Source: Alphaproteobacteria bacterium (GTDB taxonomy: Bacteria; Pseudomonadota; Alphaproteobacteria; SMXP01). From it: 53,530 nucleotides of DNA. Numbering within the stretch: position 1 is the first letter of the stretch; each line of letters starts with the position of its first letter. The notes under the pieces are model-generated. The model was given only the letters and a program-made list of their open reading frames with translations, was not told the DNA's origin and did no database searches. The stretch lies in NCBI GenBank assembly GCA_028285305.1, contig JANQPV010000043.1, positions 1-53,530 of the forward strand, written 5' to 3'. Shown here one piece after another: positions 30,932 to 35,289 of this stretch. The position numbers and the translations under genes are program-made.

Positions 30932-31267
30932 CTAGTAGGTCGAACCGACAGATCCGGTATCGTAAATGCGGTCTTCAAAGCCAAATACATCTTTGTCTCT
31001 GAATTGGTCGCCTCCGCACGCAGCGTATCCCGATTTCCAACCGGCCCGGTACCCTTTACTGCGATCGAACAGGTCGTCATCACGCGTGATGGTTTTGTCA
31101 AATCCTTGTACGCGCGTGCCGGCTGTATGGCACCCGTCGCTGTATCCTGCCCCATAATTGGGATCAGCCGCCAGTGCTTCCCGTTCTTCTCCGGACATGC
31201 ACCCGGCGATGAACAGGACGGGTAAGGCGCCCGCCAACAGTTTTGCGCAGGATTTTCTCAAGGTCAC
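30932..31267 (-). CDS. Small lipoprotein
   Basis: A 111-residue predicted lipoprotein with lipobox LFIAGC (C23). The mature part has two glycine-tyrosine repeats, GYSDGCHTA and GYRAGWKSGYAACGG, each carrying a cysteine, which could form a disulfide. I do not recognise a characterised family. It is transcribed away from the DUF2336 gene. Confidence 0.78.
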   Translation of the reverse strand: MTLRKSCAKLLAGALPVLFIAGCMSGEEREALAADPNYGAGYSDGCHTAGTRVQGFDKTITRDDDLFDRSKGYRAGWKSGYAACGGDQFRDKDVFGFEDRIYDTGSVGSTY

Positions 31268-31425: not shown

Positions 31426-31497
31426 GGATTGGTTTTATGGGCGCTGAGAGGGAAGGGAGAGAAAACTCTCCCAGTTAGTGCAGCGGCCTGGAAGCGA

Positions 31498-32892
31498 ATG
31501 AACCAATACGCGCTCAAAGTGGTGATCGATCCGTCACCATTCCAAGAGCTCAATTCGACAGCGGACGGACTTGAGGGGGCTGTGTCTCTCGAGAGTTCTT
31601 TGTCAAGGGTATCACCGGATAGCGAAGATTTGGGCTCCCAGGAGAACCAGCCAAATCTTGTTAGCGATCTGAGTTGTGCCCCTTCCCCGCCGGGAGAGGC
31701 CGACTATAGCGCGCATGTACTCGCACTTGCTGAACGTGTTGAACGCAACCGAGCAAATCAGTCCACTGCAGATCTGACCATTCGCCTCTCGGAGTTGCTG
31801 CTCTTGCCGAGCACGGATCTGTTTCCGCAGAGCCGGGCTTTGATTGACGATACCTTGAGCGAGCTTCTACCGGCACTCGACGTTCCAACGAAGCGTCAGA
31901 TAGCGCACCGGGTTGCAGGCTTGGGAGAAGCGCCCGGCCGCGTACTTCATAAGTTGTTGATGGACGATATCTCCGTTGCCCGTCCAATTCTGCAAAAGAG
32001 GAAAGACATACCCGACCATGTGATGTTGGATGTGGCCCGGCAGACTGGCAAGGAGCACCGCCAGGCGATCGCCTCTATGCGTCACTTGAGCGGTGTTGTC
32101 GCCCATGCGCTTGTGGAAACCGACGATCCGGATATCATCCAGACGGTCCTCAAAAACAAGCGCGTTTCGTTGGAGCCGGAAACCGTCGATATCGTCCTGA
32201 CACGTAGCAAGTATACATCAGACTATCGCTCGTTGTTGGTCGAACGGCAGGACTTCACACCTTCTCAGGCGTTTAGCCTGTTTTGGTGGGCGGATTCAGA
32301 AACCCGATTGCGGATCCTGTCCCGTTTCGCCCTGTCCCGGGAGACAATTCAGCGGGCGCTTCATGACTTGGTTTCATCGATTAAGGTGGGGCCGCAGCCG
32401 GGCGGTGCAGGGGATCAAATCGATTCGGCACTGGCTCTGGTTTACGGTGAAGGCGAAGTCCCGGACAGAAAAGCCGAACCGCTTCTGCCCTTTCTGCAAG
32501 AGGGAAACATTGACGGCTTTCTTATCGGTCTTGCCCAGGCCTCGGACATTTCCGAAAAGACATTGGCCCGTATCCGATCAGATGCGGGCGGGGAGCCGCT
32601 CGCCATTTTGTGTAAGGCCGGGGGAATGCGCGGGCCCGAGTTTCGGGCGCTCCTGTCGCTTCTCAATCAGGATGAACTCGGCGAAAACACCGGTGATGCT
32701 GAAGAGGAAGAGAATGAGCAATTTGAAAGAATGCACAACATTTTCGATCGGCTGAGCAACGATGCAGCCGATCTCGTCCTCAGGTACTGGGAAAAGCAAA
32801 CGTCTAATATCCCGGCCTCCGGCGCAGCTCAACAGCTGTTCCGCAAACGCATTCAAATCAATCGCAGATACGCGTCGCGTCCGCGGGCTTAG
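31498..32892 (+). CDS. DUF2336 domain-containing protein
   Basis: A 464-residue helical protein of the alphaproteobacterial DUF2336 family, whose repeats resemble HEAT-like helices. Recognisable parts are RLSELLLLPSTDLFPQSRAL, VARPILQKRKDIPD and a C-terminal FERMHNIFDRLSNDAADLVL. The function is unknown. The start is uncertain: ATG at 31498 has little ribosome site, and a TTG at 31429 is in frame. Residues 20-70 are low in complexity. Confidence 0.8.
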   Translation: MNQYALKVVIDPSPFQELNSTADGLEGAVSLESSLSRVSPDSEDLGSQENQPNLVSDLSCAPSPPGEADYSAHVLALAERVERNRANQSTADLTIRLSELLLLPSTDLFPQSRALIDDTLSELLPALDVPTKRQIAHRVAGLGEAPGRVLHKLLMDDISVARPILQKRKDIPDHVMLDVARQTGKEHRQAIASMRHLSGVVAHALVETDDPDIIQTVLKNKRVSLEPETVDIVLTRSKYTSDYRSLLVERQDFTPSQAFSLFWWADSETRLRILSRFALSRETIQRALHDLVSSIKVGPQPGGAGDQIDSALALVYGEGEVPDRKAEPLLPFLQEGNIDGFLIGLAQASDISEKTLARIRSDAGGEPLAILCKAGGMRGPEFRALLSLLNQDELGENTGDAEEEENEQFERMHNIFDRLSNDAADLVLRYWEKQTSNIPASGAAQQLFRKRIQINRRYASRPRA

Positions 32893-33153: not shown

Positions 33154-33486
33154 ATGAAGAAGCTATTTGCTGTTCTGGGAGCGACCGTTCTTTTTGCGTC
33201 GGCCGCCCATGCAACGAAAACCACGATTGAGTATGTCCCCACTGAAGGCGACACAGTTACCGTTCAGTATGACGACAGCACAATGACCTCTAAGAACGTA
33301 ACGTCCGGCAATGAGGGCACGTACACGTATGACGAGGAGACCGCTACGGTATGCGGTACCGGCGCCGAGGGCGCTGAGGTTTGTGCCACGTTTGAAAATC
33401 CAGGCACCGAAGTCGGCCACGAAACACCTTTCACCACAAACGATGGCCGTTCGGGTACCGCGAAGATCACAGCCGTCGAAGAATAA
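33154..33486 (+). CDS. Secreted mini-protein 1 (paralogue of 33606-33980)
   Basis: A 110-residue protein with a clear signal peptide (cleavage after AHA, residue 20). The mature part is acidic and beta-strand rich, with C67 and C77 ten residues apart in EGTYT...VCGTG...EVCATFENP. The same motif occurs in the next gene. I do not know the family. The ATG has a good AGGAG site. A stem-loop follows the stop at 33520-33548. Confidence 0.8.
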   Translation: MKKLFAVLGATVLFASAAHATKTTIEYVPTEGDTVTVQYDDSTMTSKNVTSGNEGTYTYDEETATVCGTGAEGAEVCATFENPGTEVGHETPFTTNDGRSGTAKITAVEE

Positions 33487-33605: not shown

Positions 33606-33980
33606 ATGATTCGTTCTTCCCTTGCTCTCGTGAGCGCTCTTTTTGTTTCTACCTCTGCTTTCGCAGCTTCGACGGTTGTTGAGTTCACCGACGCTGAAGG
33701 TCAAGCTTTGACTATTGAATTCACGCAAGGCGCCGAGCCCAGCGCTGGCACAACGAAAGTTATCGGCGGCGAGAATGACGGTGCCGAAGGCACGTATACG
33801 TCCAATGCCGATACTGGCCAGCTTTGCGGTTCTGATGCGGACGGCGTTGAAACTTGCGTGCAATTCGAAAACCCGACTGGTGAAGCGCCCAAAGTTGGCG
33901 ACACCGGGACATATTCTGTGACCGCTGGCGAGAATGCCGGATCTACGGGAACAGCAAAGGTAATCGAAGTTACTGAATAA
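33606..33980 (+). CDS. Secreted mini-protein 2 (paralogue of 33154-33486)
   Basis: A 124-residue exported protein with signal peptide (cleavage after AFA, residue 20). It shares with its neighbour the motif EGTYT, then C74-G, then C84 in CVQFENP, with the same 10-residue cysteine spacing, and the C-terminal G(T/S)GTAK. The two are probably a tandem duplication of a beta-rich periplasmic or extracellular protein stabilised by one disulfide. The function is unknown. The strong terminator at 34041-34070 closes the unit. Confidence 0.82.
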   Translation: MIRSSLALVSALFVSTSAFAASTVVEFTDAEGQALTIEFTQGAEPSAGTTKVIGGENDGAEGTYTSNADTGQLCGSDADGVETCVQFENPTGEAPKVGDTGTYSVTAGENAGSTGTAKVIEVTE

Positions 33981-34040: not shown

Positions 34041-34070
34041 AAGGGCTGCCTATGGGCGGCCCTTTTCTTT
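34041..34070 (+). terminator. Strong rho-independent terminator
   Basis: AAGGGCTGCC and GGCGGCCCTT form a 10-bp stem (one G-T pair) with loop TATG, then TTTTCTTT. It insulates the secreted-protein genes from the riboswitch locus that follows. Confidence 0.92.
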
Positions 34071-34105
34071 TGCTTGAGGGAAAACCCGTGAGGGTCTAAT
34101 TGGCA

Positions 34106-34339: not shown

Positions 34340-34447
34340 CGGTCGATGCGACCTCGATAAAGGCAAACCGTCGGTAACGGCGGGACGCAAAGCAACCGGC
34401 CCTCACGATACGGATCAAATCGCATCGATAGGGCAGCGGAGCTACCG
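34340..34447 (+). promoter_or_regulatory. Cyclic-di-GMP-I (GEMM-I) riboswitch
   Basis: The aptamer core is textbook. P1 is CGGT/ACCG at the ends. Then comes GGCAAACC (34362-34369), and a 6-bp stem CCGTCG/CGGCGG capped by the GNRA tetraloop GTAA (34374-34377). GACGCAAAGC (34384-34393) follows, then a second long arm closed by GCCCT (34399-34403) and AGGGC (34430-34434), ending in CTACCG. These match the conserved ligand-binding and tetraloop-docking positions of the V. cholerae Vc2 aptamer. An AAAGG ribosome site follows the last P1 base, so translational control is likely. Confidence 0.93.
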
Positions 34448-34495
34448 AAAGGCAAATGTATGCGAACCTTCAGTGTTGTCGCGCTCTCTCCTTTC
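34447..34495 (+). promoter_or_regulatory. Possible expression platform of the riboswitch
   Basis: GAAAGG (34447-34452), containing the ribosome site of the leader ORF, is complementary to CCTTTC (34490-34495). Its first base is also the last P1 base of the aptamer. Formation of this helix would compete with P1 and hide the site, a common two-state layout. This is inferred by eye. Confidence 0.45.
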
Positions 34496-34546
34496 CAGTT
34501 GCGTCCTGACTTGTGCACCCGGCGGTCCAAAAGCTTGGGTGGATAA
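34460..34546 (+). CDS. 28-codon leader ORF coupled to ParA-like gene
   Basis: ATG at 34460 is 7 bases after AAAGG (34448-34452), directly behind the riboswitch. It encodes 28 residues (MRTFSVVALS...KSLGG) and stops at TAA 34544-34546, which overlaps the ATG at 34546 of the ParA-like gene as TAATG. The geometry suggests that ribosomes read this ORF and re-start on the ATPase. The peptide itself has no known motif. Confidence 0.5.
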   Translation: MRTFSVVALSPFQLRPDLCTRRSKSLGG

Positions 34547-35289
34547 TGTTGCAAGCAATGAGAGTTATCGTCTTTGCGTCTCAAAAAGGCGGGTCCGGAA
34601 AAACCACTTTGTCCGGTCACATAGCGGTCGCTGCAGAACAGGATGGGTTTGGGCCAGTGGCTCTTGTCGATACCGATCCGCAAGGCTCTCTAGCGAAATG
34701 GTGGAATGTCCGAGAAACGCCAGAGCCCGCTTTCATCCAGTCCGTTTTTTCAAACCTCTTTCATGATCTCGATCATGCACGCAACGAAGGGTTTCGTTTG
34801 GTGGTTGTGGATACGCCGCCGGCGGTGACCCGCGCGATCTCGGAAGTCGTGAGCTTTGCCGACCTTGTTGTGGTGCCAACCCGGCCAAGCCCGCACGACT
34901 TAAGGGCTGTGGGACCAACCGTTGATATTGTCGAGTCCAAAAAGAAACAAATGATGTTCGTCGTGAATGGCGCGACCGCCCGGGCTCGCATCACGTCCGA
35001 AGCGGCGGTCGCTTTGTCCCAGCACGGCACCGTCGCACCGACGATGGTGCATCATAGAGTGGACTTTGCGGCCAGTATGATTGATGGGCGGACGGTTCTG
35101 GAATCAAATCCAAATGGGCGATCCAGTAAAGAAATCAGGGATCTTTGGTCTTACATGAAGGAGCGTTTGCAACGCGTGGAGACGATTGGGGCCGGGTATG
35201 TGGAAGATGTCCAAACCTCGAATGTTGTTTCCCAAGTCAACGCTCTTGGACAACGCACACCCGCTTTTGGCCGCCGTGTTTTGCAGTAG
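34546..35289 (+). CDS. ParA/MinD-like P-loop ATPase
   Basis: A 247-residue ParA-type ATPase. The deviant Walker A KGGSGKTT with signature lysine, the switch DTDPQGSLAKWW and the Walker B-like VVVDTPPA are complete. Such ATPases position DNA or protein cargo on the nucleoid. I start it at the ATG overlapping the leader ORF stop; the internal ATG at 34558 (MRVIVFASQ) is the classical family start and equally possible. No parB, parS or replication gene is near, so this is an orphan ParA, paired with the RHH gene 50 bases on. Confidence 0.88.
   Translation: MLQAMRVIVFASQKGGSGKTTLSGHIAVAAEQDGFGPVALVDTDPQGSLAKWWNVRETPEPAFIQSVFSNLFHDLDHARNEGFRLVVVDTPPAVTRAISEVVSFADLVVVPTRPSPHDLRAVGPTVDIVESKKKQMMFVVNGATARARITSEAAVALSQHGTVAPTMVHHRVDFAASMIDGRTVLESNPNGRSSKEIRDLWSYMKERLQRVETIGAGYVEDVQTSNVVSQVNALGQRTPAFGRRVLQ

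Follow-up and report, generated by a model that had tools for sequence, protein, structure and literature searches.

c-di-GMP-I (GEMM-I) riboswitches, captured in Rfam by the models RF01051 and RF03167, govern motility and adhesion genes. Known plasmid systems include ParF-ParG of TP228, which serves partition, and delta-omega of pSM19035. In the ppe2 B12 riboswitch of Mycobacterium tuberculosis, the aptamer controls a short relay ORF, uPPE2. Its stop and the start of the main gene overlap, and it was shown experimentally that expression passes to the main gene by termination-reinitiation (PMC11260477).

Here, we describe a locus from an alphaproteobacterial DNA stretch of 53,530 nucleotides, referred to below over its full length as the window, that bears a likeness to each of these systems. 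Its aptamer has the sequence, structure, and pocket letters of c-di-GMP-I RNAs and lies above the cut-offs of both models. In contrast to described GEMM-I riboswitches, its probable target is a ParA/ParG-like gene pair, and its output appears to be at a Shine-Dalgarno site directly adjoining the aptamer, in many relatives probably by way of a relay ORF and with no terminator. The pair itself resembles ParF-ParG and delta-omega in that the ATPase is nearest to 5u1g and 4dzz and the best fold match of the partner is ParG (1p94). Unlike these plasmid systems, it is probably chromosomal, with conserved synteny, and it is set apart by a long disordered partner with an N-terminal SLTAGLLARKGEA motif and a C-terminal C-x-C. 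With the ppe2 switch, the locus would share the chain of riboswitch, relay ORF, and termination-reinitiation, whereas aptamer and ligand are different, the genes are unrelated, and the relay is deduced here from sequence. Overall, we consider it likely that a c-di-GMP-I riboswitch acts via a relay ORF on how much of a chromosomal ParA/ParG-like pair is translated. The riboswitch class is already known; both its conserved target and the layout with a relay ORF appear to be new, and no description of a c-di-GMP riboswitch joined to ParA was found in the literature searched, which was limited in extent.

RESULTS

The window contains a conserved c-di-GMP-I aptamer

In a cmscan of the whole window, the sole Rfam match above the gathering score was RF03167, c-di-GMP-I-GGC (67.9 bits; cut-off, 59; E-value, 5e-14; full length, model positions 1 to 80 of 80) (Table 1). 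The c-di-GMP-I model RF01051 also scored above its cut-off (66.0 bits against 35; model positions 1 to 87 of 87). A preliminary description of this DNA had recognized the core GEMM-I elements by eye and had named RF01051 as the covariance model with which to check them. The scores with both models bear out this assignment, as does the presence of the motif GGCAAACC, a stem with a GUAA tetraloop, GACGCAAAGC, a second arm, and ACCG. The first, third, and last of these motifs, found in the window and most relatives, hold the canonical pocket G20/A47/C92, which we take from crystal structures to be the ligand-contacting letters in Vc2 numbering.

In an alignment of 16 homologues, the structure was kept in 90% of cells, compared to 22 to 46% when the partners were slid, and 9 pairs had changed on both sides, compared to a mean of 3.4 in shuffles. 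The P1b and second-arm helices, which bear on membership in RF01051, are conserved with compensatory changes. Sequence and structure of the aptamer are under constraint, and the RNA in the window is confirmed as a real c-di-GMP-I aptamer. The 5.4-Mb genome has no second copy, and the one in the window scores as high as any found elsewhere. A variant aptamer was observed in another genome (L012, 1501-1615), where the combination of GCCAAACC and GACGGAAAGC suggests that the G21-C46 pair next to the ligand pocket is swapped.

Table 1. Features of the riboswitch locus, with positions in the window
Feature	Position	Strand	Remarks
DUF2336 gene	31429..32892	+	Upstream neighbor of the ParA pair elsewhere as well (synteny)
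Intrinsic-terminator-like hairpin and T run	34041..34074 (stem 34041-34064)	+	Consensus match only
c-di-GMP-I aptamer	34353..34450	+	Best Rfam model RF03167; canonical G20, A47, C92
AAAGG Shine-Dalgarno-like site, aptamer 3' end	34448..34452	+	GGAG in most homologues
Alternative short ORF, 17 aa	34456..34509	+	ATG with poorer spacing to AAAGG
Putative relay ORF, 28 aa (MRTFSVVALSPFQLRPDLCTRRSKSLGG)	34460..34546	+	Stop TAA overlaps ParA ATG by one base
Possible hairpin over ParA ribosome-binding site	34508..34550	+	CACCC 34516-34520 with GGGUG 34537-34541; weak, z -1.5
ParA-type ATPase, ParF-like, 247 aa	34546..35289	+	
Partner protein, 265 aa	35340..36137	+	N-terminal SLTAGLLARKGEA motif, disordered middle, C-terminal ribbon-helix-helix, C-x-C near end

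The ParA-type ATPase has a conserved partner

The best start of the ATPase gene is the ATG at 34546, which aligns with the MLPxMRV of the orthologues, the longest ORF starting at a GTG at 34513. The protein has the deviant Walker A motif KGGSGKTT, and its nearest solved relatives in the PDB, matched over residues 5 to 201, are ParA 5u1g (4e-23) and the plasmid protein ParF 4dzz (6e-23). With the NCBIfam model ParA_partition it scores 167 bits, just under the cut-off of 180. This ATPase had been described as an orphan, a label that no longer holds, since a conserved gene for a ParG/omega-like partner lies next door. The partner and its orthologues share a near-invariant SLTAGLLARKGEA-like start, a long variable middle, and a ribbon-helix-helix followed by C-x-C at the end. 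Although the AlphaFold model of the whole partner is poor (mean pLDDT, 54), a beta-alpha-alpha element at residues 196 to 239 reaches a pLDDT of about 80 to 90. The top Foldseek match was ParG 1p94, with a nonsignificant E-value; of the Pfam models, RHH_1 exceeded its cut-off in the orthologue from Kordiimonas, and omega and ParG stayed below theirs, ParG in another orthologue. Two hallmarks of a ParF/ParG-type pair are present, namely, an ATPase with deviant Walker A motif that is nearest to ParF and an adjacent ribbon-helix-helix partner; thus, the pair resembles ParF-ParG. Its orthologues are chromosomal where complete genomes exist (AP024629.1 and NZ_CP104207.1), and the pair described here is probably chromosomal as well. 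The C-x-C after the ribbon-helix-helix is invariant in six aligned sequences and possibly serves metal binding or redox sensing.

Among the neighboring genes, synteny with the ParA pair extends to 12 other loci for the DUF2336 gene and to 15 for a small lipoprotein-like gene (30932-31267); no mention of DUF2336 was found in the literature searched. Two adjacent small secreted proteins (33154-33486 and 33606-33980), 32% identical to each other, are encoded between the DUF2336 gene and the riboswitch, and this pair was not found at other riboswitch loci. In Kordiimonas and sphingomonads, where the ParA pair lacks the riboswitch, the next gene encodes a TPR protein with a SPOR domain (L061, 8407-9756; L069, 7448-8845), a neighbor which may hint at division-site or envelope cargo.

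ParA is the most frequent putative target of these riboswitches

A model built from the homologues detected the aptamer in 34 of 385 alphaproteobacterial genomes, in agreement with the earlier impression that this riboswitch is uncommon in the class. The ParA orthologue was present in 53 of the 385. One aptamer copy lies directly upstream of this orthologue, on the same strand, in 15 of the 34 riboswitch-bearing genomes (G000, G001, G003, G004, G007, G119, G140, G142, G166, G222, G232, G240, G310, G315, and G339), and no other single target of these riboswitches was as frequent among the genomes sampled. The preliminary description had proposed ParA as the target from its position; this proposal is now backed by conservation across genomes from several alphaproteobacterial families. 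The other targets include flagellin, a response-regulator protein, C93 (LapG-type) proteases, an RTX protein, and a PilZ-like protein that narrowly misses its Pfam cut-off, and they fit the known c-di-GMP regulon.

In a separate scan of named genomes, which returned 80 ParA loci, a further 10 loci carried the aptamer, with 11 copies, all upstream of ParA on its strand. All 10 loci belong to uncultured genomes, and the ParA orthologues of most cultured lineages (Marinicaulis, Sphingopyxis, and Sphingomonas) are without aptamer. On a ParA tree of 47 rows, from which a motif filter had left out most sphingomonad rows, presence or absence of the aptamer changed at least seven times, at least four of these on well-supported branches. 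The aptamer was repeatedly gained or lost on this tree. One lineage (L063, 5313-5990, and L154) has two tandem aptamers; those of L063 lie in front of a 114-aa ORF, predicted by eye to encode a membrane protein, and in front of ParA, respectively.

The riboswitch probably acts on translation of a relay ORF

Upstream of the aptamer, the terminator-like hairpin (Table 1) would separate the preceding genes from the riboswitch unit. No terminator was found between aptamer and ParA, and a transcriptional platform was rejected for this reason. Of 51 distinct aptamers, 47 are directly adjoined by a Shine-Dalgarno-like site that is followed by a start codon 3 to 16 bases on, the site in the window being AAAGG only, without the full GGAG of its relatives.

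With respect to the distance to ParA, the loci fall into two groups. In one (L007, L049, L050, L053, L058, L060, L063, L122, L129, L134, L135, and L141), only 10 to 23 bases separate the aptamer from the start of ParA itself, and they hold no ORF. In the other, comprising 13 long leaders, 82 to 168 bases lie between aptamer and ParA. Six of the 13 (the window, L011, L057, L059, L062, and L123) contain an ORF that starts 4 to 14 bases past the aptamer and has its stop at +1 or +7, counted from the start of ParA. About 0.3 such overlaps in total are expected in shuffled leaders, so that the observed number is approximately 20-fold higher, in a test framed after the pattern was seen; four of the six cases come from one clade, and thus they are not all independent. 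The relay is not found throughout, since in four long leaders, all from one family, no ORF begins right behind the aptamer, and the ORFs of another three end 31 to 88 bases short of ParA. Judged by eye, conservation of the relay peptide is unlikely, as the position of the ORF is kept and its sequence is not.

In the window, the stop of the putative relay ORF and the start of ParA form the junction UAAUG. The preliminary description was right in placing an ATPase ORF downstream of the aptamer; the first output, however, is probably the short relay ORF overlapping its start. We propose that binding of c-di-GMP would close the P1 stem and thereby change access of ribosomes to the abutting relay-ORF site. 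Ribosomes translating the relay ORF would then stop at UAAUG and reinitiate on ParA, and the gene for the ParG-like partner would be next in the same transcript.

Folding of the window sequence predicts that AAAGG pairs with the 5' strand upon P1 closure, its unpaired value decreasing from 0.39 to 0.20. Comparison of free and P1-closed foldings across 39 loci revealed no consistent direction, access to the Shine-Dalgarno site being lowered in 17 of the 39, and cognate 5' flanks paired with this site no better than swapped flanks. Polarity leans slightly toward OFF, in which case bound ligand would lower expression.

The strongest competing explanation is that the riboswitch controls ParA translation directly, with ligand-dependent refolding of the leader exposing or hiding the ribosome-binding site of ParA itself, and that the window has its overlapping ORF by chance. 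The relatives in which ParA starts a short distance past the aptamer, with no intervening ORF, are in accordance with direct control, and the ParA site of the window can form a hairpin. However, this hairpin is not significantly stable, and the aptamer of the window lies 95 bases from the ParA start yet abuts AAAGG. Moreover, the excess over shuffles of ORFs overlapping the ParA start in long leaders argues against a chance frame. We regard direct control as unlikely and favor control through the relay ORF.

The ligand is probably c-di-GMP

The name of the best Rfam model might suggest an altered ligand or a cyclic dinucleotide other than c-di-GMP, considering that RF03167 is a separate family in Rfam and scores slightly above RF01051. 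According to what we take to be the naming rule, G replaces A47 in the GGC variant; the consensus of RF03167 reads GACGCGAAGC. At this deciding position, the window and nearly all homologues have an A, and the window retains G20 and C92. GGC-variant identity was set aside on these grounds, despite the RF03167 score, and the aptamer, its pocket being canonical, is treated as an ordinary c-di-GMP-I aptamer; another ligand appears very improbable. The genome contains 12 GGDEF matches, and 11 of these are over the Pfam cut-off, so that c-di-GMP is plausibly made.

It is hardly credible that the aptamer is a relic, decayed or unexpressed, or that it acts on the leader ORF only while ParA is transcribed from its own promoter: the gene evidently works without an aptamer in most cultured lineages, but the aptamer is constrained, the copy in the window has not lost score relative to any other, and a search of the + strand between aptamer and ParA, albeit a weak test, found no sigma-70-like promoter.

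DISCUSSION

Our analysis links a known riboswitch class to a ParF/ParG-like gene pair, probably through translation of a short ORF. If this is true, cells adjust the placement of internal cargo in response to a second messenger, and the relay-ORF layout is a second, unrelated example of the chain known from M. tuberculosis ppe2. It is tempting to go further and to speculate that c-di-GMP sets the dose of this machine only via the translated relay ORF, that positioning of the cargo is thereby retuned between motile and surface-attached life, and that this design was reached several times in Alphaproteobacteria. We put forward this broader reading tentatively, as a possibility that we presently rate somewhat below even. 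Since ParA is the target found most often, the aptamer provides a handle on the function of a widespread and uncharacterized ParA pair.
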